From Fistulifera solaris (lineage: Eukaryota > Bacillariophyta > Bacillariophyceae > Naviculales > Stauroneidaceae), in contig AP026157.1 of the NCBI GenBank assembly GCA_030295235.1, positions 372,001-436,000 on the forward strand: a stretch of 64,000 bases of DNA. Direction: 5' to 3'. The stretch's first letter is position 1. The number at the start of each line of letters is the position of its first letter. A model generated the notes under the pieces. The model saw only the letters and a program-made list of their open reading frames with translations. It searched no databases and was not told where the DNA came from. Both the position numbers and the translations under genes were made by a program. This document shows, piece by piece, positions 16,958 through 56,202 of this stretch.

Positions 16958-17489
16958 TTATTCCTCCGTACAAACAAAACAGTCATGAAAGACTCCAAAA
17001 TCGATACCATCACTACTTTGAATCGGTCCTGTCCCTTCGCCATCTACTGCGTAGAAACCATCGGGGCATGTTTTCGCCTTTGCGGCATCAAAGATAATGG
17101 TACATCCCAAAAAGTCAGAATCATAGATTATCCCAATGGCATCTGGATGATCGACAGCCACTTTTCACACTCGTCAAAGTAAAGATCCTGCTTGAAACAC
17201 GAGGGGAAGTTATTTCCCTCCGCGTCAACGCAATTGCCATATCCAAAGAAGGTGGAGCAAGAGCGCGAGCTTTTGGTTGCTCCACAGAAGATGGCTTCCA
17301 ACGAGAAAAGGGACGGATCAACTCCCACCGCCGGCATCACGTCTTTCCAAGTGAACGAGGAGTCGTCGTCAAGTCGAGAGTGAGTAATGCTAGGCGTCGA
17401 AGATAAAATTATACGAAATCTCGGGACTCGAGGAACTCACCAAGAACTACAGATAAGAGAAAGAACCATGCATACTTCATCATTGTCAT
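16958..17489 (-). CDS. Small secreted 8-Cys family, copy A, ~144 aa, one frame break
   Basis: Exon 1 is 17489-17441 (signal peptide MTMMKYAWFFLLSVVL, or starting at 17483). The intron is 17440-17343 with donor GTGAGT. Exon 2 is 17342-16958. The intron is phase 1 and falls directly after the signal sequence, as in copies B, C and D. Shared features are RSCSTFFGYGNC, NFPSC, DECE, AIGIIYDSDFLGC, TCPDGF, GEGTGPI and the terminal DCFVC. The N- and C-terminal halves of exon 2 are in different frames. The switch sits at the T-run 17162-17165, one base short for continuity with the paralogues. Function unknown; secreted, probably disulfide-rich and extracellular. Confidence 0.65.
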
Positions 17490-18097
17490 ATTATTGTTGG
17501 AAGATTGTTGCAACAACGTAAATATAGTTGTGAGGAGAAGCAGAAGTTCCGATGATTCTTCCATTTTCCTGATTCGGAAGTTCGCTAAAAGGTGTTTGCG
17601 GGATAGTTTGCGCTTTGAGTTCAAGGTACGGTACCGGTACCGGTACTGTATTGTAGCGTACTAGTATTCGGAACTCCGAACTCGGAAGCTTAGGCCTTAT
17701 GAACTTCGGACTTCGGAGTGGCAACAGCGCTTTTTCTGAGAACTCGGAAGCACGCGAACGCGGAACACTGCAAGTTGCAGTACACTACATGTCCTCAGCA
17801 TGTTCTTTACGTTCTGACCTTGCAAGGTTTTGGGTTTTGGGTCACGTCAGTCCCATTATAGATCCCATTCATGAATGGTTCTCATATACGGAGTATTGAG
17901 TATTGTGAGAACTGCGCCCTGGGTGCTTGTCGGAAGTCTCTCCGTAACATACTATACAGTTTACGCTTATATAGTAATTATTTCAACGGAAACATTTGTA
18001 CTCTACTCAATTGTACAACATTTCGCGACAAATTCCGATACACGTTTTATGCTATAAGCTTAAATGCCGTTTGTCTCTAAGTAATTTTTTGTCATTA

Positions 18098-18256
18098 TAG
18101 AGAGAAATTTTCTCTATAGAGAGAAATTCTCTCTGTAGAGAGAAATAGGGAGAACATTTCTCTTTAAGGGAGAAAATTTCTCTCTAAGGGAGAAATCGAG
18201 AGAAAATCTCTCTCTAAGAGAAAAATTTTCTCACTTCAGAGAGAAATTTTCATTAT
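18098..18256. repeat. GAGAGAAA/TTTCTCTC palindromic block, copy 1
   Basis: About 160 bp of alternating AGAGAGAAA and TTTCTCTCT, forming many overlapping inverted repeats. The right-hand ~90 bp (ending CTCACTTCAGAGAGAA) recurs almost unchanged in copy 2, about 850 bp away in the same orientation. Confidence 0.75.
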
Positions 18257-18962
18257 GGAGTAAGACGATTTCTGTTTAGAGTTTTCCTCTGTTGAACGAA
18301 TTTTATGTACTTGTACTGTACAATGTGGGCGTCGGGCGTCGTTGTCGTTCGCGTCGGTGCATTACTTTTCTGCTTGACAAGTATCGAAAGAGGTTTCTTT
18401 TCAAAAGAGTAATTCATATCAACTCAAAACCTATTATCTAACGCTTTTGATTAATGGCAAGAATGAGAGACCAAAGGATTAAGAGGGAAATCTCTGAATG
18501 ATCTGAGATGCGGCCGTGGCGTGCTGGAAACTCAACAAGCCCGGGAAAACGAAGCAGCCCCAGACCGCGGAAATTTGCCAGACTCTTCAGTCAGCATGGA
18601 AAAGACAAACTGTGTCCAATGAGCCGCGGATCAAATATGTTTTCACAGTAAAAACAAAAGGGAAATTGAAAATGGAGCGCACCAAACACGCCGAGCCAAA
18701 AATGGCACTCGGCCTGCACACGCCATTCGTCTTTCCAAAGCTAAGCCCCATTGTTCCTGTTGACGAGGTCAATTGATGACTAGCTATCGGGGACAAATTA
18801 CATTTTAGTAATTAGAAATGCTTGTCTCGCTGCACCGTCTTTTGTTTTTGCGTTGGTTGTTTTGTGCGATAACGGTTGTTCGTTGTGTGTTGAGGTCTCT
18901 TCATCGTCGATTTTTAACCTTAATTAGACTACACAAAGAAGTGAACGAAAGCATAGAAAAAA

Positions 18963-19112
18963 TATCTCTCTACAGAGAGAACTTTCTCTCTAAAGAGAAA
19001 AAGGGAGAAATATCTCTTTTAAGGGAGAAAATTTCTCTCTAAGAGAGAAATCGAGAGAAAATCTCTCTCTAAAGAGAGAAATTTTCTCACTTCAGAGAGA
19101 ATTTTTCTCTCT
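18963..19112. repeat. GAGAGAAA/TTTCTCTC palindromic block, copy 2
   Basis: Same composition and the same right-hand block as the copy at 18.1-18.26 kb, direct orientation. The two copies bracket about 700 bp without a recognisable gene. Confidence 0.75.
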
Positions 19113-19807
19113 GGCAAAAAACACATTACTTGTTTTGCGTTATGAGCGAACATACCGTTTCGGTTGCTAAAGATAATATTTATCGTTGAAACCAAGTTTC
19201 GTTCATAGATATTTAGGAATCGATACGACATCGAAACCATAGATAATCGGAACCGCTCGGAGTGAGTAATTTCCGTCAAGCTCCCTGATCCCTGATCATC
19301 TTATGACCTTAGTATAAATTATACTCAGTATTTACCATTCAAATGCATTCCTTGTGAGTCAAGTCAGAAGCCAGTTAGACGTCGTCAAGACTCAATGACC
19401 CTTCGTAGCAAATTTTAAACCAGTACCCCTTACTTTTTCGGATGATTGTTTATTTGAGAGTAAAGAATTATGACAAGGTAAAAGTCCGTGACTCAAAGAT
19501 CGGACAGATCTCTTTGTAGCCGACGTCATCAAGAAAAACGGAAACTGCTAAAACCACCAGCATGGTATGTTTTATTTGCTGATGACTGATGACGAAAGAT
19601 GACGATTTATTGTGAACAAGTCCTCATGTTACAATGAAATCGATGATGCGCCTTATTTTATCGGGTGGGACATGACCGAAAAACGTCAGCGATTGCAGCC
19701 ATACATCGACTTCAAGACTAGGACGAGTCAAAGACGACGACTTTTGGTAATCGGGAGACTATCGCAACTGCTTCTTAACCTATCTTTTTTCCGTCTAGCC
19801 CATCTTC

Positions 19808-20323
19808 TCAAGTACAAGCGTAACACTCGACATTATTCGTGAAGTAATCATCACTCGCCACAATCGGACCCGTCCCGACATCATCCAAAACCGCCGTGAA
19901 GCCGATTTGACACATGTTCCATGCGACCGATTCATTTTCGAGTAACACAAAACAGTCCTGTGTTGCGGAATCGTATTCGTATCCCACGACCTCCATTTGT
20001 TCCGAGGCCGCTTTCTGACATTCGATTCGAGTCATATTCGTGTTGGCGGAGCAGTACGGGTACGATTGACCAATGCGGTCGATACAATAGCCATCTCCGA
20101 CTTTGGAAGAACACGAGCGTAATGGCATATTGTCCGTTTCTGAGATGGAGCCACAGGAGAGGGCATCTAGAGAGAAGAGCGAAAGGTCAATTGCGAGGAT
20201 CGGCGCTGCTCCAAGAGAAAGGCATTGTCAGAACAGAAGAGAATACAACGACACATTAATTCGTTACGAAGGCAACATACCGAAGCTCAAAGAGAGCAAG
20301 CAAATATTAGTTTGCGATTTCAT
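19808..20323 (-). CDS. Small secreted 8-Cys family, copy B, 133 aa
   Basis: Exon 1 is 20323-20281 (MKSQTNICLLSLSF, signal peptide). The intron is 20280-20167 (donor GTATGT, acceptor CTCTAG). Exon 2 is 20166-19808 and is intact. Phase-1 intron after the signal sequence, with G|AT making Asp at the junction. Family signature: RSCSSKVGDGYC, SYPYC, IECQKAA, VVGYEYDSATQDC, MCQIGF, VGTGPI, VECYAC. The protein is acidic and ends exactly at the CYAC motif plus Thr. No known domain is recognised. Eight cysteines shared with the paralogues imply up to four disulfides. Likely extracellular; function unknown. Confidence 0.75.
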
Positions 20324-21877
20324 GGTGGCTTACTCAAATCAATTGTAATGCAGCCGAAGCGACTTTTTATGAGCGTTGGAAAGAGCATCCTCTTTTCGTT
20401 CATTGGCGATTTCTCTTCCCGCTTTCAACGAAAAGGCGAGCTAAGCATAGAGAAGTTGTCGACGAACGGGTTGTCGTATTTATCACACAAGAATGATTGC
20501 TGTTTTATGTTATGTTCGAATGCTGCTGCTGTTTACTTGGTTGGCGTTGATCGCATCGCGCAAGCAATAAAATAATACTCCGTACAAGTTGCGCCGCGTG
20601 ACTGATTGTTTCGTGAAACAGTCACTCGGACGAACACGTGGCTCATTTTTTAGTACCGGGAAAAAGGTATTCTACACTTCACATCATATTCGAGTACCGC
20701 ATTCCAGCGAAGGCTCTGGAACGCGTCGTTCGCACAAATATTTTGTTGCACGCAGTAATGCAGTAGGGTTCACGATAAGCGGGACAAAGAGGGACTGAGT
20801 ATCGTTGAGTCAGGACCTGACTACACTTTAGTATACAGTATCAAAAATGCAACACAAACACAACAAGACGACGAAATACTGTAATAATAAGCAGCAAAAA
20901 GACATGATGATTCATATTCTCTTCCTTTTCTGCTTCTAACATGTAGTCACTTCTCACCAGTATCATTTTAATTGCTGAACAGCAAAATACTGACGGGCGG
21001 CTGTTGTTAGTTGTCGCCCCGTTCCCAAGCGCCGACTAAATAAAGCTACGAAAAGAAAGACGACTCTTTGCGTTGCCGTGACGGTTTCTGCTGTTTTTGA
21101 AATTCCAACTACATTAATACACGCCACCGCATCACAAGATCAACTTGACTACTGATGTTATTATCGGTCCTTCGACACGCGGGCTGTATTTTTGTCGCGC
21201 ATTGTCGGTGTCGGCGTTCCCAACAATGCGTCTTGATGAATTCGATCCTCGACGTTTATTTTTTTTTACAAGTTATGATGATTTGTGAAACACACACGGC
21301 GATTCGGGATATAATTTTTGTCTTGATAATACGCGCTCGGCAATCTGAAATATTCTTGCGTTTTGCTTCTTCAGAGGCGGTGATTCGACATTACCCAGAA
21401 GTTGGCAACGATCCCCGACCGTAGCATCAGCATTCATCGTGAATGTCGTCCACTTGGGCTTTTTTCACGAATCATTCGGCGCATTGTGGAAGCGTAGCGA
21501 TGACGACTGTGGAGCAGAATTATCCCGGATAGACAGCGAATCATCAGTCATGATGATAATCGACTCCGCCTGTGCTATTGTGAATGATCAAGGAAAAGAT
21601 TATGTTGCGTTTAAAAACCAATAACCAGCATTTTGTCGAAGCACGGATCCGGTCGCTTCGCTCTTGTGGCGATACCATCTACAGTCTATCCAAGCGACAA
21701 GACGTTTTGAGAAAAAGTTTAATTTCTGTGAATCGGCAACTGTTTGAATTGACAATTGACGTGCGTACGATAACGATGTCGACTTAACAAATGACAGGCT
21801 ATAAATAATAGCTATCTTTGAGAAAATTCACTGCCTATAAAAAGATAGTTTGACAATGAGGAACTGATTTCCAAGGC
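20324..21877. other. Gene-poor region
   Basis: About 1.55 kb upstream of copy B and downstream of copy C. Small ORFs are not supported. It has a TACTCCGTA motif at 20576-20584. Nothing else recognised. Confidence 0.45.
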
Positions 21878-22411
21878 TCACTCGTCAATGCATTTGTAGC
21901 ACACTTCGTCGCTGTTGGCAATGTCCTGTATTCCAGTGACCGGGCCCGTGCCTTGAAGGGATGCATCGTTCACCTTCTGGTAGCCACCCGGGCACGTGAA
22001 CTCAAAGGTAGCATCGTAGAACAAGCCGCATCCCACCACGCCACTCCACGCACCATAAGAAAGCCCCACCGAATTGATCTCGGCAGTGGCAGCGAGCTGG
22101 CAGTCTTCCAACGTTCCGCCCACGGTGTAGCAATTGGGATACACCGATCCGGAACCAGTACAAAGACCATTACCGACAAAGGTGGTACACGTGCGAGTGC
22201 TGTCAGGGGGAACCACCGGTTCATCTCCTCCACCAAAGAGCCGGTCGCAGATGCCCTGTTGTTCTCGCGAGAAAAGAGATTCGTTCACCGCCCCAGCGGA
22301 TCCTGCACGCGTCGAGAATGTGAGATATTGGTGATGACGAGGATGATTGACATGAAGGACAAGTATCTTACCGAGAAACAAAGACAGAAGGTGGAACGTT
22401 GTACGCAGCAT
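21878..22411 (-). CDS. Small secreted 8-Cys family, copy C, 154 aa
   Basis: Exon 1 is 22411-22372 (MLRTTFHLLSLFL, signal peptide). The 69-nt intron is 22371-22303 (donor GTAAGA, acceptor GTGCAG). Exon 2 is 22302-21878. The intron is again phase 1 right after the signal sequence. The Cys domain reads RTCTTFVGNGLC, VYPNC, LEDCQLAA, SVGLSYGAWSGVVGC, FTCPGGY, GTGPV, VCYKC. This copy has an extra ~25-residue linker before the domain (SLFSREQQGICDRLFGGG) with one extra Cys. Same family as copies A, B and D; function unknown. The ORF extends further upstream, but the splice signals and paralogues support the start at 22411. Confidence 0.75.
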   Translation of the reverse strand: MLRTTFHLLSLFLGKILVLHVNHPRHHQYLTFSTRAGSAGAVNESLFSREQQGICDRLFGGGDEPVVPPDSTRTCTTFVGNGLCTGSGSVYPNCYTVGGTLEDCQLAATAEINSVGLSYGAWSGVVGCGLFYDATFEFTCPGGYQKVNDASLQGTGPVTGIQDIANSDEVCYKCIDE

Positions 22412-23375
22412 CGTAAAATTTTGGGAGATATTGGTGTCAAGGTGTAGAAAGTAACTAGAAAGTGAAAAAAGTGACAGCAAACAATAATAAACGCCAATAT
22501 TTGTTGGTTGTGCTTGTGACTTTCGTTGGATGATGGATCTTTTTGGTAAAGTAGTAAAGAAGTCATTACAGACTAGCTAGTGCCTTGCCCTACGGATGAT
22601 GCAGAGCAGAATTGCAAAAGATGAAAATTGTGAGCTAGAATGATTTAGTCTAGGTCGAGATCGAAAATGACTAGCTGGTCACTGGTTGACGATCCAGGAC
22701 CAGATCGGGACCAATTTGAGACTCCATGATCAAATAGCGATAGAAAACAATAGAGAATCCGGGATTATTCCAATAGCCTCGCTAGTTCTGCTCAAGATAG
22801 ACTTCGCCGAACCTAGGCCGAAAATGACTAGCTCGAGTCATGAAGGTCTGACGTCGTCGGCGGAGGAAGAAGATCAATAAGAACCCGGATGTATGACGTC
22901 ACGGAGAACCCGAAGAAGGATAGGGGTTACTGTGTGCCCAAGACAGCTAGAGGATCGTCAATGGTCATTGTTTTCCTACTTTGTATCAGCTGAATTGTAG
23001 AGAATGTCATTTTTATCATTATTTGTGTCCATCTGAACTTTGAACTTCAATAAGCAAAGGCGATACAAGATACGTTAAGATGACAATACTTTTTGGCAGT
23101 ATAGCCGGGCTACGCCCAATCTAAACTAAAAACTCTTCGTCACGGTTTGACCGATACATTGAGTAGTAGTTGGGAAAACTAAGAATACCTTCGTCTTCCT
23201 GGTTTGTACGCCGGACGCTGGTAGGGTTAGCTTAGGTCGGAGCGAGAGCTAAAGAGAGAAGAGAGCAACAGAGAACAGAGAGACTCTGATTGTTGAAGCT
23301 TGCATTATGTTTGTGCATTATGCAAAGAGTTACGTCGTGCTTCGTGCTGTCGTGCTGTGATCGATCACCGGAATA

Positions 23376-23950
23376 CCTTTCGATCATCGCATCGCTGAAT
23401 GTCGACCGCTGAGCCGCTGAGCAAAGCTATTTTCTTGGGCCTAGCATGATTGGACCTTTAATTTGGATGGAACAATCAGCTCACGGGTCGTGTGTGTGTG
23501 TCAACCTGGCTCCAACGGGCGATGCCAGACCAGAGATATCAACCCTCACGGGGACGTCTGCAATCTGACAACATAGACCCATCTAGCCTCTTTACTACTA
23601 AATTGATTATACTACATTACTACGGAATCCGAACGCCCATCTCCCAGCAGAAAGCAGATCTTCAACCCAGTAGAAGCGTTGTGTAAACGGCGGAAATTAA
23701 AGCAGAACACCACATTTGCCACGTGTGATGGTGGTGGCGAGGGACGATTCGATATCAGTTTCTTTCGCCCGACTCGAACTCCAACCCCCGAAGACGAAAG
23801 CCTTGGGGTTACCACTGGGCCACGGAGTGACCCCTCACGGGTCGTCAGTCGTCAGGAACGGGTCAAAGGTTCCGCCGCCCATGCGAATGGCAAAATCTAC
23901 AACTCAATAAACGTCATGGTCAACTTTCCTATTGCTATCGTCACGATTCT
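23376..23950. repeat. Diverged duplicate segment, left copy
   Basis: Shares with 24478-24690, in the same order: GCATCGCTGAATGTCG, a CAAAGCTA...TTTCTTGGG block, GATGGAACAATCA, a GGGTCGTCAG...GGAACGG block, and CTACAACTCAATAA followed by CGTCATGGTCA. The left copy carries an extra insert of about 250 bp. Confidence 0.6.
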
Positions 23951-24477
23951 AGACGCATTCGAACAAAAAGTTGAATTCTTTGTATAAAAGCAGTGGAACA
24001 AATCTTTTCTTACGGCCAACAAACAATGTCCCATGTCCCATACTTTTTCTAAGGCTTAGCAAGAATTCTCATGCCGGTACGTCCGTTGCATCAACCCTTT
24101 TGTACATGCAGCCTGCAGTGCGAGATTTTTTGTCTTGTTCGCGTTTGATTATAGTCCCATTACAATATTAGATCGAAAACTAATTATGCTTTCACCTTGG
24201 AATTTCGCGCAATTGCGATTTCAGCCGCCAATGCTCGCCCCCCTGACCTTCATGTTTTTACTATGATGCAAACAGTAAGTTCTACGAATCCACGACTGGA
24301 TTCCAGTCATGAGAATGCCGCAATCCTTCATTTTCGCGTTTGGTTATAGCCTCATTACATTCATAGACTTAATAATGCTAAACATGAGCTAACTACTTTC
24401 AATCTCAAGGATGGTGTGCGTGATTTGTGAGCTTGTTTGTTTCCGTTGGAACAGATAGACCTACTGTCTACGGAATA

Positions 24478-24690
24478 TCTTCTTTTCAATCGCATCGCTG
24501 AATGTCGTGCAAAGCTACTGTATTTCTTGGGATTTAATGTCTTTCATGATTAGACACTTGATGGAACAATCAAATCACGTTCATCGGGTCGTCAGGAACG
24601 GACAAAGGTCCCGCCTTGACGCATGGGCAATACCTACAACTCAATAAGCGTCATGGTCATCTCTTTTCTAATAATTCTATCGTCAGGACT
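24478..24690. repeat. Diverged duplicate segment, right copy
   Basis: Shorter partner of the segment at 23.38-23.95 kb, same orientation, with block-wise identity separated by diverged spacers. Not recognised as a known element. Confidence 0.6.
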
Positions 24691-24998
24691 CGCAGGACGG
24701 ATTGAAACTAAAACGTTGATTCTTGAAAGAGCAGTGGAAGTGGAACATCTGCGGCCCACACAAAAAATGGCCCATCCTCGTTTTATCTATCTAGCTACAA
24801 GGTACTACGGACTTGACTACTTGTATACGGAGTAAATAATAATATTCTGATGTCAGTATGTCCGTCGCTCGTTACTGAGACGATGAAAGCGAAAACGCGA
24901 CGACGGCGCACACAGCAAAACAAAAACGAAATCTGTTGGAGCAAAGAAAATGTACATTGAATTCATTTTCTACTCTCGAAAACTTGACAAAAAGAGAG

Positions 24999-25787
24999 AT
25001 GACAGATCGTAGCAAAAAGACACGATGGGGATCGTCCGCCGAGACGAGCAACAACTCGTCCATCAGCGACGAAGCGGCGCTGCAAGCACTGTTGTCGTCC
25101 GCACAAGCGCACAAAGACCAGCGTCAACGAGAAACGGAGGCGGCACGACGACGCTTTGACGAGAAACGAAAGAAACGTCCGCGCGAAGAAACCAGCAAGA
25201 CGAACGGAAATGAAGCCAAAGACGATTACTACGGACCAGCCAGCCGTGCGACAAAGGACGACAATTCACACAGCGACAACAAGAACGACGAGGATGCTCC
25301 GATCGACAAGCAAAAAGCGAATTTCGGGTTATCCGGTGCATTGACGAAAGATTCTCGTACCGGTAATGTGTACAAGGGAGTGTTACTGAAATTTCAAGAG
25401 CCACCAGAAGCTCGAACACCTAATACATTGTGGAGATTCTATGTCTTTAAAGAAAACAATCCAGATCCCATTGAAACCTTGCATGTCTCGAAACAAAGTG
25501 CGTTTCTGATTGGTCGGAATGCGGAGATTGCGGACATTGTAGTACATCATCCTTCGTGCAGTTCCCAACACGCAGTGCTGCAATATCGGGCCCTGCCGCG
25601 AGAGGATGGCCGTTTGCACTGTCAGCCCTACTTGTTGGACCTCGAATCGACCAACGGGACGTTTTTGAATGGGGTACGGATCGATGCGGCGCGGTATTAT
25701 CAGCTAAAAAAGGGGGATGTCCTGAAATTTGGGGCGTCGACGCGGGAATATGTGTTACTGACGGCGAATACGAAAAGTGTCAAGTAG
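24999..25787 (+). CDS. SNIP1/Pml1-like FHA-domain protein, 262 aa
   Basis: The ATG at 24999 (MTDRSKKTRWGSS) is the first proper start. The N-terminal ~120 residues are charged and disordered with RR/KK clusters (RRRFDEKRKKRPREE), as in splicing-associated proteins. The C-terminal FHA domain runs from LWRFYVFKENNPDPIETLHV through FLIGRNAEIADIVVHHPSCS and QHAVLQYR to LLDLESTNGTFLNG and LKKGDVLKFGASTREYVLL. The conserved FHA residues (GR, SxxH, NGT-x-N) are present. This order matches SNIP1 (animals), DAWDLE (plants) and Pml1 (yeast), which bind phosphothreonine and act in mRNA splicing/retention or small-RNA biogenesis in the nucleus. Orthology is inferred from architecture. Confidence 0.85.
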   Translation: MTDRSKKTRWGSSAETSNNSSISDEAALQALLSSAQAHKDQRQRETEAARRRFDEKRKKRPREETSKTNGNEAKDDYYGPASRATKDDNSHSDNKNDEDAPIDKQKANFGLSGALTKDSRTGNVYKGVLLKFQEPPEARTPNTLWRFYVFKENNPDPIETLHVSKQSAFLIGRNAEIADIVVHHPSCSSQHAVLQYRALPREDGRLHCQPYLLDLESTNGTFLNGVRIDAARYYQLKKGDVLKFGASTREYVLLTANTKSVK

Positions 25788-26348
25788 GAATATTGCCGCT
25801 GTGTTGAGTAAATGATCGCTTGACGACGAATAATCAAAGCGAAAATTCGATGATCAAGTGTACGGAACGATTGATTGACCCAACCATGAGGGATCTCTCC
25901 GCAAACGAGTCTCTGATTATTAGAATGGTGATGCTGTAGCCTCTACCGTCGGTTGCTCACAGCTTAGATAGATACGGTGAAAGTGAAATATCTCCCTGCT
26001 GTGTAACTGAGGTTGGACTGCATCCTTTCGTAGGTAAAGCAAGAACATAGAAATGTCACGACTGAGAATTTGGGTCACGATTACTTCATTCTTGGGGCAC
26101 ATGACGTTTTCGAATTATTTTGAAATTTCTTCATCATCATCGTGTAGCGACGCGGTCGACGATCATAATATGATGTGAAAGATTAAGCGCATTATTAAAT
26201 TAAATTATTACCCTGAAGTTGGTCAAACAATAAAATACAGCTTTTGAATCTGACTTGAAAAGCTTTGTTTGACGTTGCCGATCGTCAAGTATACCAGTTG
26301 ATTTTGCTCTTTCACCTAGACCAATTTTTCCCTCACCTTCCGATCATC
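25788..26348. other. Intergenic, nothing recognised
   Basis: 560 bp between the FHA gene and copy D of the Cys-rich family. No gene or repeat recognised. Confidence 0.4.
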
Positions 26349-26861
26349 ATGCGCGCTTCTTCCTTCTTCTTTTCCTGCATTTTCGGTAAGCTATTATCTT
26401 ACTGCAAGTCTATCTCCTACCATACATGTCAATTTTATTTACTCATTCGTTTTGGTAAAGGATATCCTGCAATGAGTTAGGGAATACAAGATTCCCTCTT
26501 GGTGCGCGATGAAATCTTGTGTGGAAATAATAGAGGAGACGACAACACTCGCTCGTGTTCGAATCAGGTTGGACTGGGTCTTTGTTTGGATGGTCAGATG
26601 AATTACTACCCCAACTGTTTCGCGGTCGGTGTCACAATCAACGATTGTGAGCAGGTAGCGACCAGCCAGAGGAATGCGATTGGCTGGGAATATTTTCGCG
26701 ATGAAAATGTGTGCAATATATTGTTTGATGCCACTGCAGCATTCAGTTGTCCAGCCAAATTTAATAAAAATGATGATCCAGCATTGGAAGGAAAGGGCCC
26801 CATTGATGATAGTGACGATGATACGCAATTCGGGGAGATTTGCTACGCATGTAGCAATTAG
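26349..26861 (+). CDS. Small secreted 8-Cys family, copy D, 135 aa
   Basis: Exon 1 is 26349-26385 (MRASSFFFSCIF, short signal peptide). The intron is 26386-26490 (donor GTAAGC, acceptor ACAAG). Exon 2 is 26491-26861. The junction codon G|AT gives Asp, exactly as in copies A and B. Family signature: RSCSNQVGLGLC, YYPNC, INDCEQVA, AIGWEYFRDENVC, FSCPAKF, EGKGPI, ICYAC. It is the only copy on the plus strand. The signal peptide is short, and a longer one from an upstream start was not found. No frame break. Function unknown. Confidence 0.72.
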
Positions 26862-34179: not shown

Positions 34180-35809
34180 TTGTTTATGCGTTAAAATAAT
34201 TTTTTATGTTTGTATCGTTTCTAGCTGTTGATCAATGGTTCATCTTTTACGTCATGCATCTTTGTCAAATCATGTTCCGCGTTTTTGGAAAAAAAAAGTT
34301 TTCTAAAGTGTACTTGCTTTCTTTTGCTCGGGTGCCAACTGAGATGTATCAAGTGATGTATCAAGTTGCTCTTATGAATTTGCGATAACAGCGTCCTTTT
34401 CATTCTTTCTCTGGCTTCATTAGAACGTAAAACTACATGAATAGAACGGCTGATGATTCACCTTCTGCTTCATATCCTCTACGGCCCTTGCGAGTAAACA
34501 GCAAGAAGCATAAATGATTAAAGCTTCAACAAGAAAATATCGGGCATTCCAGCTCCCACTTATGGTGTCGAGAGCAAGTTTACTCCTCGTTCTCTCGTCT
34601 CCATTGAATGAAGTAAATCACTTGAGCTCATTTCTCAAGATCCGTATCGATCAGGAGGAGGTACAGCAAAAGAAAGGGATTTACAAGAACCGAAAAGTAC
34701 TCGTAAACAAAGGTAGCTTCCCGTGTGAAAACATCATTTTAAATTTGTTCTCAGTACAAGTATTTATTTTTAATGCGATGTGTGCAACAGGATGTTTTCA
34801 CGTGACCCAAAAATTTGGGATTGTGTTGTTTTTACGTAGCCCGAAAATCTGGGAGAGTGCTGTTTTCACGTCCCCCGAAAGTCTGGGCATGTGCTGTTTT
34901 CACGTCCCCCGAAAATCTGGGCATGTCCTGTTTTCACGTGCCCCGAAAATCTGCGCATGTGCTGTTTTCACGTCCCCGAAAATCTGGGCGAGTGATGTTT
35001 TCACGTCCCCCGAAAATCTGGGGGAGTGTCGTTTTCACGTCCCCCGAAAATCTGCGCATGTGCTGTTTTGACGGTCCCAGAAAATCTGGGCGAGTGCTGT
35101 TTTCACGTCCCCCGAAAATCTGCGCTTGTGCTGTTTTGACGGACCCAGAAAATCTGGGGGAGTACTGTTTTGACGGACCCAGAAAATCTGGGCGAGTGCT
35201 GTTTTCACTGCCCCCGGAAATCTGGGGATGTGTCGTTTTCACGTCGCCCGAAAATCTTGGCAGTGCTGGCTTCACGTCCCCCGAAAATCTGGGCGTGTAA
35301 TATTTTCACATCTTCCAAAAAATCCGGGGTAGTGGTATTGTCGAACCGTTTGGTTCGTGTTTTACTCTTTTTCTTCTAATGAGCGCTCATCGGTTTGTAT
35401 CATGTTGCTCGAGATGAATCTCAATGATAATTGTCTTTTCATTGCTTGTTTCGTGTTATTGGAACAAGACAACTTCTTTATGCACAAGCTGAATACGAAG
35501 TATTCATATTATTTGCGTGGAATGGATTCAGTCATGAGTCATGTGTCATGTGTCATCTACCGTTGACACAATGACTATACTGTCAATCGCACTTGTATAA
35601 CAAAAAACGTGAAAACCAATTGTTTATAGGCTTTGCTGTAGGTTACTTTTTCCTATACGGGGCTAAAAAATTATCACGCGTGAGAGAGCGGAGAAAAAAC
35701 AGCCTCCGAGGCGACACATTCTGCTGCGCTCACGTCTTCTCGTTCTTTCACAACAACAAATAATGGCTTCTCATTCTCAATCTCCCGTCTTTTCCAAAAT
35801 GATGCAAAC
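34180..35809. other. Intergenic, contains 34-bp satellite
   Basis: About 1.6 kb. The 34-bp tandem array at 34.79-35.34 kb is listed separately; open frames through it are by-products of the repeat. A half copy of the dispersed palindrome is at 35522-35540. Confidence 0.5.
34792..35338 (+). repeat. 34-bp tandem satellite, ~16 copies
   Basis: Unit of about 34 bp built around TTTTCACGTCCCCCGAAAAT followed by CTGGGC(A/G)(T/A)GTGCTG. Central units are most alike and the outermost units are degenerate, as expected for homogenisation by unequal exchange. Several units carry the palindrome CCCAGAAAATCTGGG. Because 34 is not a multiple of 3, reading frames cycle through the array on both strands and give spurious ORFs. 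Confidence 0.9.
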
Positions 35810-38611: not shown

Positions 38612-41350
38612 GGTTCCAGAATTTCTGGAACAACCACAAAATCTCTGTTTGACCCCAAACTTCTGGAACGCCAAACGAATCTCTATTTGAGCGAAAACAC
38701 CGATTCCAGAATTTCTGGAACAGCCACAGAATCTCTGTTTGACCATAATCACCAAATCCAGAATTTCTGGAATTACCACAGAAGCTCTGTTTGACACAAA
38801 TAACCAATTCCAGAATTTCTGAAACTACCACAGAAGCTCTGTTTGACCCAAATCACAAATCACCAATTCCGGAATTTCTGGAACTACCACAGAAGCTCTG
38901 TTTGACAGAAATCATCAATTCCAGAATTTCTGGAACAACCACAGAATCTCGGTTGGACCGAAATCTACCGATTCAAGAATATCTGGAACTACCACAGAAT
39001 CTCTGTTTCTGTTTGACCCAAATGGTCAATTCCAGAATTTCTGGAACTACCACAGAAGCTCTGTTTGACGCAAATGGTCGATTCCATAATTTCTGGAACT
39101 ACCACAGAAGCTCTCTTGGACCGAAATCTACCGATTCCAGAATATCTGGAATTACCACAGAAGCTCTGTTGGACCTAATTCACCGATTCCAAAATATCTG
39201 AACAACCACAGAAGCTCTGTTTGACCCAAATCATCGATTCCAGAATATCTGGAACTACCCCAGAAGCTCTGTTTGACCGAAATCATCGAATTTAGAGTTT
39301 CTGGAATTACCACAGAAGCTCTTTTTGACCCAAATCACGTATCCAGAATATCTGGAACTACCACCGAATCTCTGTTGGACCGAAATCACTGATGATTCCA
39401 AGATATCTGGAACTACCACAGAAGCTCTGTTTGACCCAAATCACCAATTCCAGAATTTCTGGAACTACCACAGAAGCTCTGTTTGACCCAAATCACCAAT
39501 TCCAGAATTTCTGGAATTACCACAGAAGCTCTGTTTGACCATAATCACCTAATCCAGAATTTCTGGAATTACCACAGAAGCTCTGTTTGACCCAAATCAT
39601 CGATTCCAGAATTTCTGGAATTACCACAGAATCTCTGTTGGACCGAAATCACCGATTCCAGAATATCTGGAACTACCACAGAAGCTCTGTTTGACCGAAA
39701 TTGAATTTCTGGAATTACCATAGAAGCTCTGTTTGACACAAATAACCTATTCCAGAATTTCTGGAAATACCACAGAAGCTCTGTTTGACCCAAATCATCG
39801 ATTCCAGAATTTTTGGAATTACCACAGAATCTCTGTTGGACCGAAATCACCACTTCCAGAATTTCTGCAATTACCACAGAAGCTTTGTTTGACTCAAAAA
39901 TTACTTATTCTCTTCCAGAATTTCTGGAACTACCACAGAAGCTCTGTTTGACAGAAATCATCAATTCCAGAATTTCTGGAATTACCACAGAATCTCTGTT
40001 TGACCGAAATTAGCTATTCCAGAATATCTGGAACTACCACAGAAGCTCTGTTTGACCCAAATCACAAATCACCAATTCCGGAATTTCTGGAACTATCACA
40101 GAAGCTCTGTTTGACACAAATAACCTATTCCAGAATTTCTGGAAATACCACAGAAGCTCTGTTTGACCATAATCACCTAATCCAGAATTTCTGAAATTAC
40201 CACAGAAGCTCTGTTTGACCCAAATCATCGATTCCAGAATTTCTGCAATTACCACAGAAGCTTTGTTTGACTCAAAAATAACTTTTTCTCTTCCAGAATT
40301 TCTGGAACTACCACAGAAGCTCTGTTTGACAGAAATCAGCAATTCCAGAATTTCTGGAACTACCACAGAAGCTCTGTTTGACCCAAATCACAAATCACCA
40401 ATTCCGGAATTTCTGGAACTATCACAGAAGCTCTGTTTGACACAAATAACCTATTCCAGAATTTCTGGAAATACCACAGAAGCTCTGTTTGACCCAAATC
40501 ATCGATTCCAGAATTTCTGGAATTACCACAGAATCTCTGTTTGACCGAAATCACCGATTCCAGAATATCTGGAACTACCACAGAAGCTCTGTTCGACCCA
40601 AATTGAATTTCTGGAACTACCACAGAAGCTCTGTTGGACCGAAATCACCTCTTCCAGAATTTCTGAGATTACCACAGAAGCTCTGTTTGACTCAAAAATT
40701 ACTCATTCTCTTCCAGAATTTCTGAAATTACCACAGAAGCTCTGTTTGACCCAAATCACAAATCACCAATTCCGGAATTTCTGGAATTACCATAGAAGCT
40801 CTGTTTCACACAAATAACCTATTCCAGAATTTCTGGAAATACCACAGAAGCTCTGTTTGACCCAAATCATCGATTCCAGAATTTCTGGAATTACCACAGA
40901 ATCTCTGTTGGACCGAAATCACCTCTTCCAGAATTTCTGAAATTACCACAGAAGCTTTGTTTGACTCAAAAATTACTTATTCTCTTCCAGAATTTCTGGA
41001 ACTACCACAGAAGCTCTGTTTGACAGAAATCATCAATTCCAGAATTTCTGGAATTACCACAGAATCTCTGTTTGACCGAAATCACCGATTCCAGAATATC
41101 TGGAACTACCACAGAAGCTCTGTTTGACTCAAATCACAAATCACCAATTCCGGAATTTCTGGAACTATCACAGAAGCTCTGTTTGACACAAATAACCTAT
41201 TCCAGAATTTCTGGAAATACCACAGAAGCTCTGTTTGACCCAAATCATCGATTCCAGAATTTCTGGAATTACCACAGAATCTCTGTTGGACCGAAATCAC
41301 CTCTTCCAGAATTTCTGAAATTACCACAGAAGCTCTGTTTGACTCAAAAA
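38612..41350 (+). repeat. ~52-bp palindromic satellite, ~50 copies
   Basis: Monomer of about 52 bp. It has a near-palindrome TTCCAGAATTTCTGGAA, then (A)CTACCACAGAAGCTCTG (a second near-palindrome, CAGAAGCTCTG), then TTTGACCCAAATCACCA. Spacers vary slightly between monomers. A distinctive spacer (GACTCAAAAATTACTTATT) recurs near 39893, 40270, 40691, 40969 and 41341, giving higher-order units of roughly 280-420 bp. There are no unique spacers, so it is not a CRISPR. Many ORFs on both strands arise from the repeat and are not genes. Confidence 0.93.
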
Positions 41351-51095: not shown

Positions 51096-52362
51096 TCTAG
51101 TGAGTTTTTGTTTTATGAAATCAGTAGGATAATAAATGAATTACAAAGGTCGAATAGACATGCAAAGTTGATATCCCAAATGCAAAAAGACTTTAGCGAC
51201 AACTATGACAGGTCCGGCGAAATACGCGTGCAAGTGTGGACTTTTTGCGGCTTCCATTATTTCACCGCCAAAGTCCGCACTGTGTCCGCATGATTGACTA
51301 TGCAGGAAAGTGTTGCTTCTCTCGGAAAAGAATGGCCGTGCGGTATTCGCACAAATCCCAAATCATCCGAACCGAACTTTGGCCAAACGGACAGACGGCA
51401 AATGAAGTCGGACGTCGGCCGGACGCCTCGGACGACGACAGGCAAACCAAAAACACCCTCTTCAGAATTTCTGGATGAATCACCGAATGTCTGTAATCTG
51501 GAACTTCCACCAAACCTCTGTGTGAAGCGAAACTTCGACGTGTAGAAAATCTCTCTGTAACGCAAAACAACAAATCCAGATTTTCTGGAACATACACAGA
51601 AATTCTGAATGAATAAAAACACCCATGGTCCAGAATTTCTGGACCAGGCACAATTTTGTGCAACACGAAGATAAACAGTTCCAGAAATTCGGGAACGTCC
51701 ACCAAATCTCTTTGTGTTGCAAATCAACGATTCCAGAATATCTGGAACGTGCAGAAATTGAACTGTGACGCGAATCAACAATTCCAGATTTTCTGGAATA
51801 TACACAGAAATTCTGAATGATTAAAACAACGATGGTCCAGAATTTCTGGACCAGGCACAATTTTGTGCAAGACGAAAATAAACAGTTCCAGAAATTCGGG
51901 AACGTCCACCAAATCTCTTTGTGACGCAAATCCACGATTCCAGAATATCTGGATCGTGCAGAAAAATCTCTCTGTGACGCGAATCAACAATTCCAGATTT
52001 TCTGGAACATACATAGAAATTCTGAATGATTAAAAATACCGATGGTCCAGAATTTCTGGACCAGGCACAATTTTGTGCAACACGAAGATGAACAGTTCCA
52101 GAAACTCGGGAACGTCGACCAAATCTCTTTGTGACGCAAATCCACGATTCCAGAATATCTGGATCGTGCAGAAAATCTCTCTGTGACGCGAATCAACAAT
52201 TCCAGATTTTCTGGACCAGGCACAATTTTGTGCAACACGAAGATAAACAATTCCAAACTCTCGTTTACAAAATCTCTGTTCCATAAAAAGCACTTTTTCC
52301 AGAATTTCTGGAATTTACTCTTGACTGACTCATGACTTAAATGCAGTTATTGCGAAAATCTC
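51096..52362. other. Intergenic, mostly satellite
   Basis: Upstream of the KDM5-type gene. The tandem array at 51.46-52.32 kb is listed separately. A palindrome-like copy lies at 52329-52352, just before the pseudouridine synthase. Confidence 0.5.
51460..52318 (+). repeat. Second satellite, ~208-bp higher-order unit of four ~52-bp monomers
   Basis: Four monomer types alternate: TTCCAGAATTTCTGGACC (followed by AGGCACAATTTTGTGCAA), TTCCAGAAATTCGGGAACG, TTCCAGAATATCTGGATCG and TTCCAGATTTTCTGGAACA. The TGGTCCAGAATTTCTGG monomer recurs at ~51628, ~51835 and ~52044, a period of about 208 bp. Same orientation, monomer length and palindromic core as the 38.6-41.35 kb array, but clearly diverged in spacers. 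Confidence 0.9.
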
Positions 52363-53315
52363 ATGTTCTGCCTTTACTGCTGCCAACCACAAACACAAAC
52401 GCAAAGAAATATGTTATCGATCAATTTAACCATAACATCATTGCTCCTACTTCTGTTAAAACTGCAATCAATTAACAGTTTACATATCCCTATTATTTAC
52501 GAGTCAAAAGATTTCTTGGCGATCAACAAACCATCGGGAATTCCTTATCATTCGACGACCGACGAATTGGGCATCGTAGCACTCGTTCGACAGCAATACA
52601 ATCAAGAACATCCGACAGCGCGATTATACAGTGTTCATCGACTGGATCGAGTGACATCGGGCATCTTGTTGTTGGCGAAAACTCCAGAGGCGGCTCGAGA
52701 ATTAACCCGCTTGTTTCGAGAAAAGAATATTGTCAAATATTATACGGCACTCTCGTATCACAAAGCGACACAGAAAAAGCAGGGATGGATCCAAGGAGGA
52801 ATGGAACGCGGGCGACGCAAGTCGTGGATGTTAGTGCGCGAGTAGTGTTTGCTCAAACGCGATTCTTTAGTGCGGGCTTGGGGCAGTTGAGTGCTGCGGA
52901 TGGTTTGGCTCCATTATCTCTATCCAATTCGAAGGAAACCGCACCTTTGGCACCCCGTACCTTGTTGCTGTTGCGACCGTACACCGGAAAAACGCATCAG
53001 TTGCGTGTCGCTGCAAAAAGTGTTGGCTTACCGCTCGCGGGCGATCCCGTCTACAAGGATCGCTACGATTCATCGGCGACACTAGATCGAACCTATTTGC
53101 ATGCGACTGCTTTGGAGATTCCTGCGTCAAAAGATGATACTTCTATATGTTTCCCAGAAAGCATATCATTGTGGTGCCCGCCGCCGTTTGCACACTTTTG
53201 GCAGAACGAGAAAGAGTTCAACGAGGTTCTACAACGTTTGGTGGACAAGCATTGCGAGTCGGCAGAGCTGCGTGCTCTTTGTCGCGGGCCGTATCACGAA
53301 GAGATCTCGCCATGA
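52363..53315 (+). CDS. RluA-family pseudouridine synthase, ~317 aa, one frame break
   Basis: Converts uridine to pseudouridine in RNA. The N-terminus is hydrophobic (MLSINLTITSLLLLLLKLQS, from an internal Met at 52411), so it may be organelle- or ER-targeted. Domain motifs: FLAINKPSGIPYHST, the catalytic Asp in YSVHRLDRVTSGILLLAKT, and FREKNIVKYYTALS. In the second part, LRPYTGKTHQLRVAAKSVG and LPLAGDPVYKDRY. The frame changes at about 52838-52846, where one base is missing for continuity; here no clear homopolymer is involved. Both halves remain typical of the family. RNA substrate unknown. Confidence 0.8.
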
Positions 53316-54012
53316 AAGGAAATACATCTGAACTGTTACTTTGGTGCTCAGCCGACAGGATCTTTGGAACAGGCATTTCGAAATTTGTGAAAAAGCTCGG
53401 CGTTTGGGAAGTACTTTAGTGATGGCCAGTCGGAGTAGAGGCTACTAGAGGTTTGTCGGTGGTCGGCGGCCGTTCCGCTTGTTATAGCTAAAACACGTGT
53501 TGATGATGGGGTCACGATTGCACGGAAAGTTCTTGGTTCGAATGGCCGATCCATCGGCGGAGCACATCAAGAGAGGACGAGAAAATCACTCTCGGTTCGT
53601 GGCTAGATTGCGCAAAACCACTGTGACGTCATTTTGAGTCGTGAAGTGCTGTCACGCTTACACTCCGAGTACTTTGATACCCTCTTTGTGTACTCAACGA
53701 TTCCCGCGGTGTCTGTCGGTACGGCGCCTTTCTCGTGCCCTTAATTATTGAATACTTATGGATAGGCACGGATCTCCACACAGAAAGTACCAACGAGAGC
53801 GAGCCGACTACAGTAACTATGGTACAAATCCAATCGAACCTTTCGAACGGATATCGGAGACAATTCCGGTGAACCTTGAGCGCACTTTGAGAAATTTCTC
53901 GTTTCACTAAAAGCGTCCGTTCCTTCCTTCATTTGTGCTCACCTCCTTTGAGGCAGTATTGTTTGATTGAATGGAACATCACCTCTGACACCATCACCCC
54001 ATTGATCCAATC
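53316..54012. other. Intergenic, nothing recognised
   Basis: About 700 bp between two plus-strand genes. ORFs on the minus strand are not supported. Confidence 0.45.
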
Positions 54013-54657
54013 ATGAAGTTTCCAACGCAACCCCGTAAAAGCCAAAAGCGGCAACAACGAACAGCCAAACCAGAACAGCCACGACGAGAAGACGAAGAAA
54101 TCATCAGTATTTCGTATTCGGATATGTACACGAGTTCCACTGTGGGTGAGCCCGCTTACGATATGGAGGCAGTGCAAGAAACATCCGAACCACAGTCCTC
54201 GATGATGGTGTTTTCTACACTTCATCCGGAGGACACCCCTACCGTAACATCGTTCCCTACCGACGTCCAGAGTATCATTCGCCATCAGCGTTGCACTACA
54301 GAAGAGTTCGAAGTTGTGTTTCGACAAGTTGGAGAAGACTTTACTCCGAAACAAAAGAGTCAGATGCGATTGTTTCAACTACTGACTTCGCCGACGCAGT
54401 CGAGCAATTCTTCCCATGCTCCCAAGAGCGATGAAGACGAACTGGAAACGAGTTGCTTTGGTTCTCCGTGGGAACTTACGGTCTGGACGATTTCAGCTAT
54501 TCTGGTGATTAGCGTGACGGTGATTCTTTGTGCTTTACTTTACAATCGTCGCATCGGTGACGATGCTCCCGTGACGGCTGTCCCCTTTTCGGCTTCCACG
54601 ATACCTCCGCAATGGACTTCAGACGCTTTGAATGTGACGACGACACCGAGTCCATGA
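54013..54657 (+). CDS. Single-pass membrane protein, 214 aa
   Basis: Intact ORF from ATG 54013. A basic N-terminus (KFPTQPRKSQKRQQRTAKPE) and a Ser/Thr-rich acidic region (DEEIISISYSDMYTSSTVGE) are followed by a helical patch (TTEEFEVVFRQVGEDFTPKQ). A single transmembrane segment near the C-terminus (LTVWTISAILVISVTVILCALLY, residues ~155-177) is followed by a Thr/Pro-rich end. No signal peptide, so probably a type II or tail-anchored topology with the long N-terminus in the cytosol. The next gene has the same layout; see the finding on the pair. Function unknown. Confidence 0.6.
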   Translation: MKFPTQPRKSQKRQQRTAKPEQPRREDEEIISISYSDMYTSSTVGEPAYDMEAVQETSEPQSSMMVFSTLHPEDTPTVTSFPTDVQSIIRHQRCTTEEFEVVFRQVGEDFTPKQKSQMRLFQLLTSPTQSSNSSHAPKSDEDELETSCFGSPWELTVWTISAILVISVTVILCALLYNRRIGDDAPVTAVPFSASTIPPQWTSDALNVTTTPSP

Positions 54658-55136
54658 AATTTCTGTATGTTTCTATGTATTGTTTCGGAACCTCTGGTCA
54701 GCTACGGAGGTCTGCATGGATTGATTGTTTATTTTTCTAGAAAGGGGTTTATTGTGAGCCCGCGAACTTCACTGAATCTTTTCGCGCGCAAAATCTGCGC
54801 CAAAAAGTGAAGATTTTAGCTCTTTTCTTTCTATAGTAATATTTTAGTTAGACGTTGTTCCAGATTTCTCTTTTCAACGGCTATTTATCTGTTAAATACA
54901 GATACTCTTTGAAGTGTGTTGTGCACGAATAGACGCGTCGCGGGCGCGCACCCAAAGGCCCTGAATTTTCAAAAGCCAAGAAAGCAGAAAGCTGCCGCCC
55001 ACCAAGAAAAAAAATGACTTGAAGCAACAACGCAAAAAGCTTTCCCCGTGCTATCGTTGTCTTTTCTCTCTTTCAAAGCATTGATTTTCGACCGGTTTAC
55101 TTGTCCTTTATCAACGCACTTTACTTATAGATACGA
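54658..55136. other. Intergenic, nothing recognised
   Basis: 479 bp between two similar membrane-protein genes on the same strand. No element recognised. Confidence 0.4.
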
Positions 55137-56202
55137 ATGACAAATCGACAAACGGCGTTGCCTCTATTTGACGAGCCGACCTTGTCGGATATTTACATGA
55201 GCGACATGGAAGACGACGACGACGATGACTTGAGTGACGATTCGATAGCGAGCTCTGCCGTGTTTCCTGTACAACGGATGTCGCAACAGAATGATGTGTT
55301 GATTGCGGAACTGCCAGCGAAAAGTCTATCCATGATAAAAACCGTGCCAAGTCCGATGAAAACAAGGAATCGCCACCATCGCTCGCGAAGATCACGTCAT
55401 CGTCGACAACAACCGAGTCCTGGAGAAGATCCACCGGGATACGAAGCTTCGAGCACATTGGATTTGACACGCTTTATTTATACGTTACCGGATGTACATG
55501 AAGAAGAACCTTCCAAGGCATCGACGATGCCCAAGGACCCAAAATTCAGTGAATCCACCAACCCGTATGTGCAGCAACGGCGCCTTCATTTGTGTGTCAT
55601 TTTCCTGACTTTCCTGTTCTTGTTGCTGGGGATTACGGTCGCCGTTATCGGTTCGACCATCTATCAAGAAGAGGAAGTCCCAACGGCCACTTCCGCCAGT
55701 GCCGCTCTCGAACAGGAAGATGGTGGTAGTTTACCCGCCGTGCCCATTGATCTCCCGGATAATCTTTTTTAGCGTTCGTCCTCCGTCACTGTCGCCGTCT
55801 CGTGGGGGTACTACATTTCCTTCGGCATTGAAAGATACCATTGCACTAACCGCCATGCCTACGTTGCGTGTATCCGAAGTAACTCCACCCATGGCGCCTC
55901 CTAGTATGCGGCCAACAATACGACCGACTCGAACACCCACCATTCAATCCACAGACCCACCTTCGTCGCCGCCGATCTTGGAACCTTTGGAAGTGCAAGT
56001 GTCTCCACCGTCGCGACCACCCACACGCTCATCTTTGACGGCCCGTCCGACACCGGTTCGATCGTTCGCTCCGACCCCCAGACGCGTTGAGTGGACGCCA
56101 GCGCCCGTAGAAGAGACGTTTGAACCCACGGTACCCGCCAAGAAACCAAAAGGAGAAAAAACGGCAATAAGGTTTAGTAGGATATGCTTTCTTTGTTTCT
56201 AG
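55137..56202 (+). CDS. Single-pass membrane protein with Pro/Thr-rich ectodomain, ~354 aa, one frame break
   Basis: Cytosolic-looking N-terminus with an acidic patch (SDIYMSDMEDDDDDDLSDDS) and a basic cluster (RNRHHRSRRSRHRRQQ). A transmembrane segment (LHLCVIFLTFLFLLLGITVAVIG, residues ~147-169) follows, then a Pro/Thr/Ser-rich extracellular part (PPMAPPSMRPTIRPTRTPTI, PPSRPPTRSSLTARPTP). The ectodomain is in the +1 frame; the switch is at the T-run 55765-55770, one base longer than continuity needs. Without it the frame ends at 56202 rather than 55772. Composition suggests an O-glycosylated, wall-facing stalk. No family recognised. Confidence 0.55.

Follow-up and report, generated by a model that had tools for sequence, protein, structure and literature searches.

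Results

Four related genes in the window

The stretch of DNA analysed here, hereafter the window, comprises 64,000 nucleotides of one contig (C42:372001-436000) in the 51.7 Mb, 61-contig assembly of Fistulifera solaris, an oil-producing diatom. It carries four related genes, three on the minus strand and one on the plus, as a first-pass annotation of the DNA had noted (Table 1). Here, we show that these genes belong to an old, divergent and real multigene family, whose predicted fold class (PAN/apple-like) is recognisable and whose domain has no label in the sequence libraries searched.

Table 1. Genes and PAN-like domains in the window.
Feature	Window position	Strand	Details
Gene 1	16958..17489	-	exon 1 17489-17441, predicted intron 17440-17343 (98 nt), exon 2 17342-16958
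Gene 1 PAN-like domain, N-terminal piece	17134..17268	-	profile match E 4.7e-6
Gene 1 PAN-like domain, C-terminal piece, other frame	16970..17164	-	profile match E 5.9e-8
Gene 2	19808..20323	-	exon 1 20323-20281, predicted intron 20280-20206 (75 nt), exon 2 20205-19808
Gene 2 PAN-like domain, 8 Cys	19814..20122	-	profile match E 4.7e-24
Gene 3	21878..22411	-	exon 1 22411-22372, predicted intron 22371-22303 (69 nt), exon 2 22302-21878
Gene 3 PAN-like domain, 8 Cys	21890..22198	-	profile match E 3.6e-18
Gene 4	26349..26861	+	exon 1 26349-26385, predicted intron 26386-26490 (105 nt), exon 2 26491-26861
Gene 4 PAN-like domain, 8 Cys	26547..26852	+	profile match E 4.8e-25; protein modelled by AlphaFold2

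F. solaris is described as an allodiploid diatom with paired homoeologous chromosomes (PMC5935921). Two published guide-RNA target sites of this species (PMC13276009) have exactly two matches each in the assembly, one per paired contig (C38/C39 and C7/C8). The homoeologue of the window region is contig C43, 70 kb of which is collinear with approximately the first 55 kb of the window, at an identity of about 69-87%.

The gene models of the first-pass annotation proved nearly right. It had described a short signal-peptide exon of 12-16 codons, and exon 1 of genes 1-4 indeed has 16, 14, 13 and 12 codons, in each case plus one base (phase 1). The phase-1 intron of 69-114 nt that it proposed is likewise present in all four of our models; however, a phase-blind intron score ranks the chosen model first for genes 2, 3 and 4 only, whereas for gene 1 it prefers a phase-2 intron, and the 98-nt model listed is a manual choice. 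In alignments of genes 2, 3 and 4 with their homoeologues (3/3 pairs), donor and acceptor borders coincide, and the introns contain indels that are not multiples of three, across which translation would lose frame. If gene 4 used the acceptor that it shares with its homoeologue (26460), translation would meet an in-frame TAG at a codon that is TGG in the homoeologue. Hence, an open frame in gene 4 requires the acceptor at 26490, 30 nt downstream, which gives the only model found with an open frame.

One Cys-rich domain per gene had been claimed, and this holds for genes 2-4. In gene 1, a frameshift divides the domain between two overlapping frames, and no counterpart of gene 1 lies between its neighbours in the collinear C43 stretch. 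Description of the products as 8-Cys proteins is correct for the domain itself, but downstream of the signal peptide the products of genes 2, 3 and 4 have nine Cys each: the eight domain residues and a further one that precedes the domain. Compared with its C43 homoeologue, gene 2 shows 86% protein identity and a ratio of nonsynonymous to synonymous divergence (dN/dS) of 0.125; gene 3 shows 72% identity and a dN/dS of 0.175. For gene 4 and its homoeologue, dN/dS is 0.250.

A multigene family in both subgenomes

A tblastn search of the F. solaris genome with gene 2 yielded 35 places at E <= 0.001, the best paralogue having E 8e-13, which puts the family beyond chance. Six such single-protein searches, followed by an iterated profile on the recovered loci, gave 60 matches, pieces of broken copies included. 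These correspond to about 46 loci by manual count, and all locus counts are lower bounds owing to the single-protein tblastn. Among eukaryotes, the family searches covered this one genome. Family members lie on contigs C1/C2, C11/C12, C13/C14, C23/C24, C27/C29, C30/C31, C32/C33, C36/C37, C40/C41 and C42/C43, in both subgenomes. The number of domains per protein ranges from one to four, with one in most members; two-domain loci occur on C11/C12 (near 1.3 Mb), C13/C14, C30 and C42 (C42:266k), and the four-domain members form a single pair (C27/C29). The two-domain member at C42:266379-267209 (L012:4379-5209) has one in-frame TAG between its domains. Of 43 gene models, 35 had a phase-1 intron in first place (four had phase 0 and four phase 2; one of 44 loci gave no model), the exact acceptors being less certain genome-wide than the phase. 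With a signal-peptide-like exon 1 in most models, and with this many loci in several clusters, the earlier proposal of an extracellular multigene family is borne out at the level of sequence.

Our alignment (A3) contains 50 of the 60 profile matches. It omits nine pieces or matches from broken or truncated copies (two each from gene 1 and C42:79k, and one each from C30:5k, C31, C12:78k, C23 and the second domain of C42:266k) and one odd row (C24:90k), and it retains three rows without the last two Cys. Each of the eight Cys columns is Cys in 47 to 50 rows. The order of the Cys residues is constant, but their spacing, previously thought rigid, is variable: by manual count, 20 residues separate Cys4 from Cys5 in locus L005 and 30 do so in L012. 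Gene 1 and the copies at C42:79k, C42:266k, C12:78k, C30:5k and C31:43k are broken or truncated, which suggests birth and death of family copies.

Members on C24 and C32/C33 (L036:2494-2805, L036:5854-6183, L038:3198-3518, L037:3043-3363) form a subfamily with an extra Cys near the domain start (CxC) and another near its end (CCRC), while the C23 copy has the first added Cys and ends before the second. On our reading of the sequences, these extra residues stand beside the first and last conserved Cys, as would be expected if the first and last strands were adjacent in the fold.

No relatives were found by tblastn among viral contigs (two queries) or bacterial and archaeal contigs (one query). 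The domain is acidic, with a median isoelectric point (pI) of 4.6. None of the 50 domain rows, to which this test was confined, contains a transmembrane-like stretch; for these rows, the idea that the products are transmembrane proteins is unsupported. In the literature listings searched, no title or opening of an abstract describes this domain in a diatom.

A predicted PAN/apple-like arrangement of strands and Cys

Using A3 as input, AlphaFold2 produced a model of the gene 4 protein with a predicted local distance difference test (pLDDT) of 91.8 and a predicted template modelling score (pTM) of 0.83. Its elements follow the order strand, strand, helix (residues 42-51), strand, strand, strand. 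A run on three window sequences alone gave a pLDDT of 41.6 and was discarded. In a Foldseek search of the PDB, 47 of the best 50 of 169 matches (E <= 10) came from PAN/apple proteins, a manual count in which the PAN/apple content of most entries is assumed; these are chain-level matches, in which the matched part of long chains is unspecified. Isolated PAN domains are among them (2hgf, 3hms, 3hmr, 1hky). The matched chains include the HGF N-domain, factor XI, TgMIC4, AMA1 and plasminogen, as well as S-receptor kinases, a PAN module of Eimeria and a copper oxidase of Colletotrichum, among others. Against the viral models of BFVD, 21 of the best 50 of 156 matches are named PAN or apple.

Comparison of profiles points in the same direction. 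Alignment by hhalign of the family with a PAN_4 profile, made from 41 domains (39 distinct) of bacterial genomes, has a P-value of 0.0018 and a score of 19.5, and pairs the helix Cys of the two profiles with each other, and likewise their hairpin Cys. Among 200 column-shuffled PAN profiles, no score is as high (mean 9.7, maximum 18.4), and the reversed profile scores 11.5. The helix Cys and the Cys of the following hairpin strand, aligned to the outer pair of PAN_4, are Cys in all 50 family rows. At positions +4 and +10 from the helix Cys, which form the inner pair, Cys is present in 41/41 PAN_4 rows. By contrast, the family has Ala at +4 in 48 of 50 rows, and at +10 it has A (22 rows), V (9), S (9), I (5), Q (3) or R (2), with Cys in 0/50. 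We predict, with fair support, a PAN-like order of strands around one helix, with the helix and hairpin Cys at the positions of the outer pair in the PAN core, the bond itself being predicted. The inner pair appears, from the aligned rows, to have been replaced by small residues, mostly Ala.

Sequence libraries were silent. Pfam gave only weak, unrelated matches for 36 members (best E 0.019, for DUF2025), NCBIfam gave no credible match, and the WSC domain (PF01822) matched neither the F. solaris genome nor any of the members nor the consensus. Profile searches of PDB sequences returned four weak matches each (LEAFY and UTP10, for example), with best E-values of 0.03 and 0.1, which we attribute to chance. 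A profile match to a well-known annotated domain, which the first-pass annotation had named as grounds for refutation, was absent at every curated threshold; the structure prediction that it proposed as a check, here by AlphaFold2 and Foldseek, points to a PAN/apple-like fold with no single match significant. Hence, the domain is unrecognised, as had been stated, in the libraries searched, but not with regard to its fold class. Failure of the hidden Markov models (HMMs) may stem from replacement of the inner Cys pair. Since that pair was looked for and is absent, as is a Pfam match, we file the family as PAN-like, outside PAN_4 and the other PAN families of Pfam. This lowers the claim of membership and not the claim that the domain works like a PAN module.

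Age and selection

In a tree of the domains, each of the 21 homoeologous pairs forms a sister pair, which dates the paralogues to before the subgenome split. Genes 3 and 4 group with members on C30, C40, C41 and C42:266k (support 0.84), and gene 2 lies elsewhere. Median dN/dS between homoeologues is 0.13 over 16 family pairs (range 0.03 to 0.68), with 15 of the 16 below 0.3. The corresponding value for neighbouring open reading frames (ORFs) is 0.12 (n=24), a set in which some ORFs overlap on opposite strands and may be no genes. Because the two medians are close, we conclude that the family is mostly under ordinary purifying selection. One two-domain pair (L026/L025; C11 near 1.302 Mb, C12 near 1.232 Mb) stands apart, with a dN/dS of 0.679, far above the others, which suggests relaxed or diversifying selection. 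The family had been described as fast-evolving and expanding. Fast evolution is rejected on these ratios, and neither it nor expansion is supported by paralogues that predate the split or by the several broken copies. Overall, the earlier observation is partly confirmed, and its interpretation partly supported.

Other features of the window

Near the far end of the collinear region, a tract at 52410-55157 has 93% identity to C43, against about 69-87% elsewhere, and an ORF at 54012 has a synonymous divergence (dS) of only 0.07 from its homoeologue; the compared C43 stretch ends there. Together, these values point to a possible exchange or gene conversion between subgenomes. A secreted-looking ORF at 151-903 encodes RELQ after a signal-peptide-like stretch. 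Two stretches of C43 are related to it, one near 270 kb and the other near 275.5 kb; dS for the matched pair of ORFs is 1.35. At 38693-41338, 34877-35096 and 51257-52346 lie repeat arrays that contain long open frames, for example PEFLELPQKLCLTQ or the reading of the opposite strand; on C43, related copies of the first array occur near 302.7 kb and those of the second near 322 kb. Two similar stretches (18090-18250 and 18960-19115), located between genes 1 and 2, are rich in short inverted repeats resembling ctctctagagagaaa. At 60325-63576, ORFs resemble, by eye, the gag (zinc knuckle) and integrase of a Copia-type element.

Discussion

We consider it probable that the four window genes represent a family of small secreted proteins carrying one to four copies of a divergent PAN/apple-like extracellular binding module. 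According to this model, the protein enters the secretory pathway and the module comes to lie on the cell surface, in the frustule coat or in extracellular polymer, where it would bind glycans or proteins as PAN modules do elsewhere. An adhesive or glycan-binding function is inferred by analogy with those modules. Between signal peptide and domain, many members have LF-x-R-x-L followed by Cys; window genes 1-3 retain the LF, and all four have the linker Cys. In members that have R-x-L, the linker may be cut at this motif. In one-domain proteins, the single linker Cys could allow two-fold valency through an interchain disulfide, and the multi-domain members, most of which lack a linker Cys, would have tandem modules instead. 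Factor XI, an apple-domain protein that dimerises via an interchain disulfide, provides a precedent.

A number of results weigh against this interpretation. At the curated cut-off, the PAN families of Pfam have no match in three window proteins, 36 members, the consensus or four more sequences. PAN_4 has no match in the F. solaris genome; the control genomes had none either, so PAN_4 was then sought in 398 bacterial genomes of another phylum, of which 55 matched. The best Foldseek E-values are 0.29 (PDB) and 0.035 (BFVD), with none <= 0.001, and query-normalised TM-scores among the matches listed are 0.22-0.40 (PDB) and 0.14-0.46 (BFVD). The probability assigned by hhalign is low, at 14.8%. 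Among the linker counts, LF.R in 22/44 cases (mean in shuffled linkers 0.9, maximum 5) speaks for the model; R.L occurs in 25/44 (mean 12.0, maximum 20). The shuffles behind both counts take no account of descent, and the stretches of 50 residues may contain some translated intron. Against the model, a strict R-x-L is absent from the exon-2 linker of all four window genes. In favor of the valency idea, a linker Cys is found in 20 of 21 one-domain loci versus 1 of 5 multi-domain loci (Fisher p 0.0016; 42 of 44 linkers, C29 and C30:5k omitted), in a post hoc test with hand-trimmed linkers from loci related by descent, which places three broken loci in the one-domain group and one TAG-interrupted locus in the two-domain group. 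C13/C14 run counter to the pattern.

The low significance of each Foldseek match, the lack of any HMM match and the absence of the inner Cys pair could also mean that this is an unrelated 8-Cys secreted domain with its own fold, in which the similarity of the helix-plus-hairpin core to PAN is due to convergence only. We regard this as unlikely, since one fold class dominates the Foldseek lists, and since the profile alignment covers both helix and hairpin with a score that no shuffled profile matched. In the predicted order of strands and helix, and in the helix and hairpin Cys, the family is like the PAN/apple domains (PAN_1, PAN_4 and kin, as in the HGF N-domain, factor XI and TgMIC4), and aromatic residues are common in both at +13 and +15 after the helix Cys. 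Unlike them, it has small residues in place of the inner pair, additional Cys at both ends, and C-terminal GTGP and CYxC signatures, with no Pfam PAN match. A set of secreted signal or defence proteins diversified by selection seems very unlikely. In its favor, the proteins are small, predicted to be secreted, Cys-rich and encoded in clusters, and the paralogues are strongly divergent; one pair (C11/C12, near 1.3 Mb) even has a dN/dS compatible with this idea. However, the remaining homoeologous pairs show no such ratios, and the paralogues are old.

Somewhat less doubtful, although still on the unlikely side, is a family of frustule or silica-vesicle proteins, which would pass into the silica deposition vesicle, undergo cleavage at R-x-L, and stay within or upon the silica coat. 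Such a scenario does not conflict with a PAN-like fold; place and role set it apart from the explanation we prefer. In its favor are the acidic domains and perhaps the R-x-L count. In diatoms, proteins associated with biosilica are reported typically to have R-x-L after the signal peptide (PMC5525289), and R-x-L is also described as a possible site of cleavage (PMC9650480). A signal peptide and a Cys-containing luminal part are likewise features of silicanin-1 and other RXL-bearing biosilica proteins, but Sin1 is described as having a transmembrane helix and an NQ-rich region that contains 18 Cys (PMC5525289). Neither is present in the family domains. Telling against silica are the lack of a strict R-x-L in the window genes and the lack of a frustulin hexapeptide in the domain rows. 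The frustulins of F. solaris are secreted, Cys-rich proteins of the same species, with hexapeptides CQGDCD and VPGCSG in which residues other than Cys are reported to vary (PMC4712521). Searched in exact letters only, these two and the alternative form CEGDCD occur in 0/50 domain rows, and for these rows a frustulin reading is unsupported.

To return to the PAN-like binding module, stramenopiles offer a parallel in the oomycete protein CBEL and its kin (CBM1 plus PAN/Apple), which are likewise secreted and bear PAN/apple modules, present twice in some of them (PMC3532174). CBEL has PAN/apple beside cellulose-binding modules, and is reported to bind glycoproteins via galactose-type motifs (PMC3532174). 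Unlike CBEL, the family proteins scanned against Pfam contain no cellulose-binding module, and none is reported in two other diatoms (PMC3532174). CBEL may therefore serve as a functional analogy within the stramenopiles, and not as proof of membership.

A more specific version, which we put forward tentatively and with considerable doubt, is that the family is an unnamed diatom branch of PAN that has lost the inner disulfide and gains avidity in either of two interchangeable ways: covalent dimers of one-domain proteins, made through the linker Cys, or two to four tandem modules, mostly lacking that Cys. The set, old and retained by both subgenomes, would then be a repertoire of surface lectins with a part in cell recognition, in adhesion to substrates or in assembly of the frustule coat. 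If the PAN-like interpretation is true, a fold class, a searchable profile and a likely binding role could be assigned to about 46 loci of a diatom used in biotechnology, loci whose domain is absent from the libraries searched. Its members would become testable candidates for a part in the adhesion of diatoms, in recognition and in assembly of the wall coat, and the family would also be an example of a PAN-type domain that retains its fold after loss of a core disulfide.

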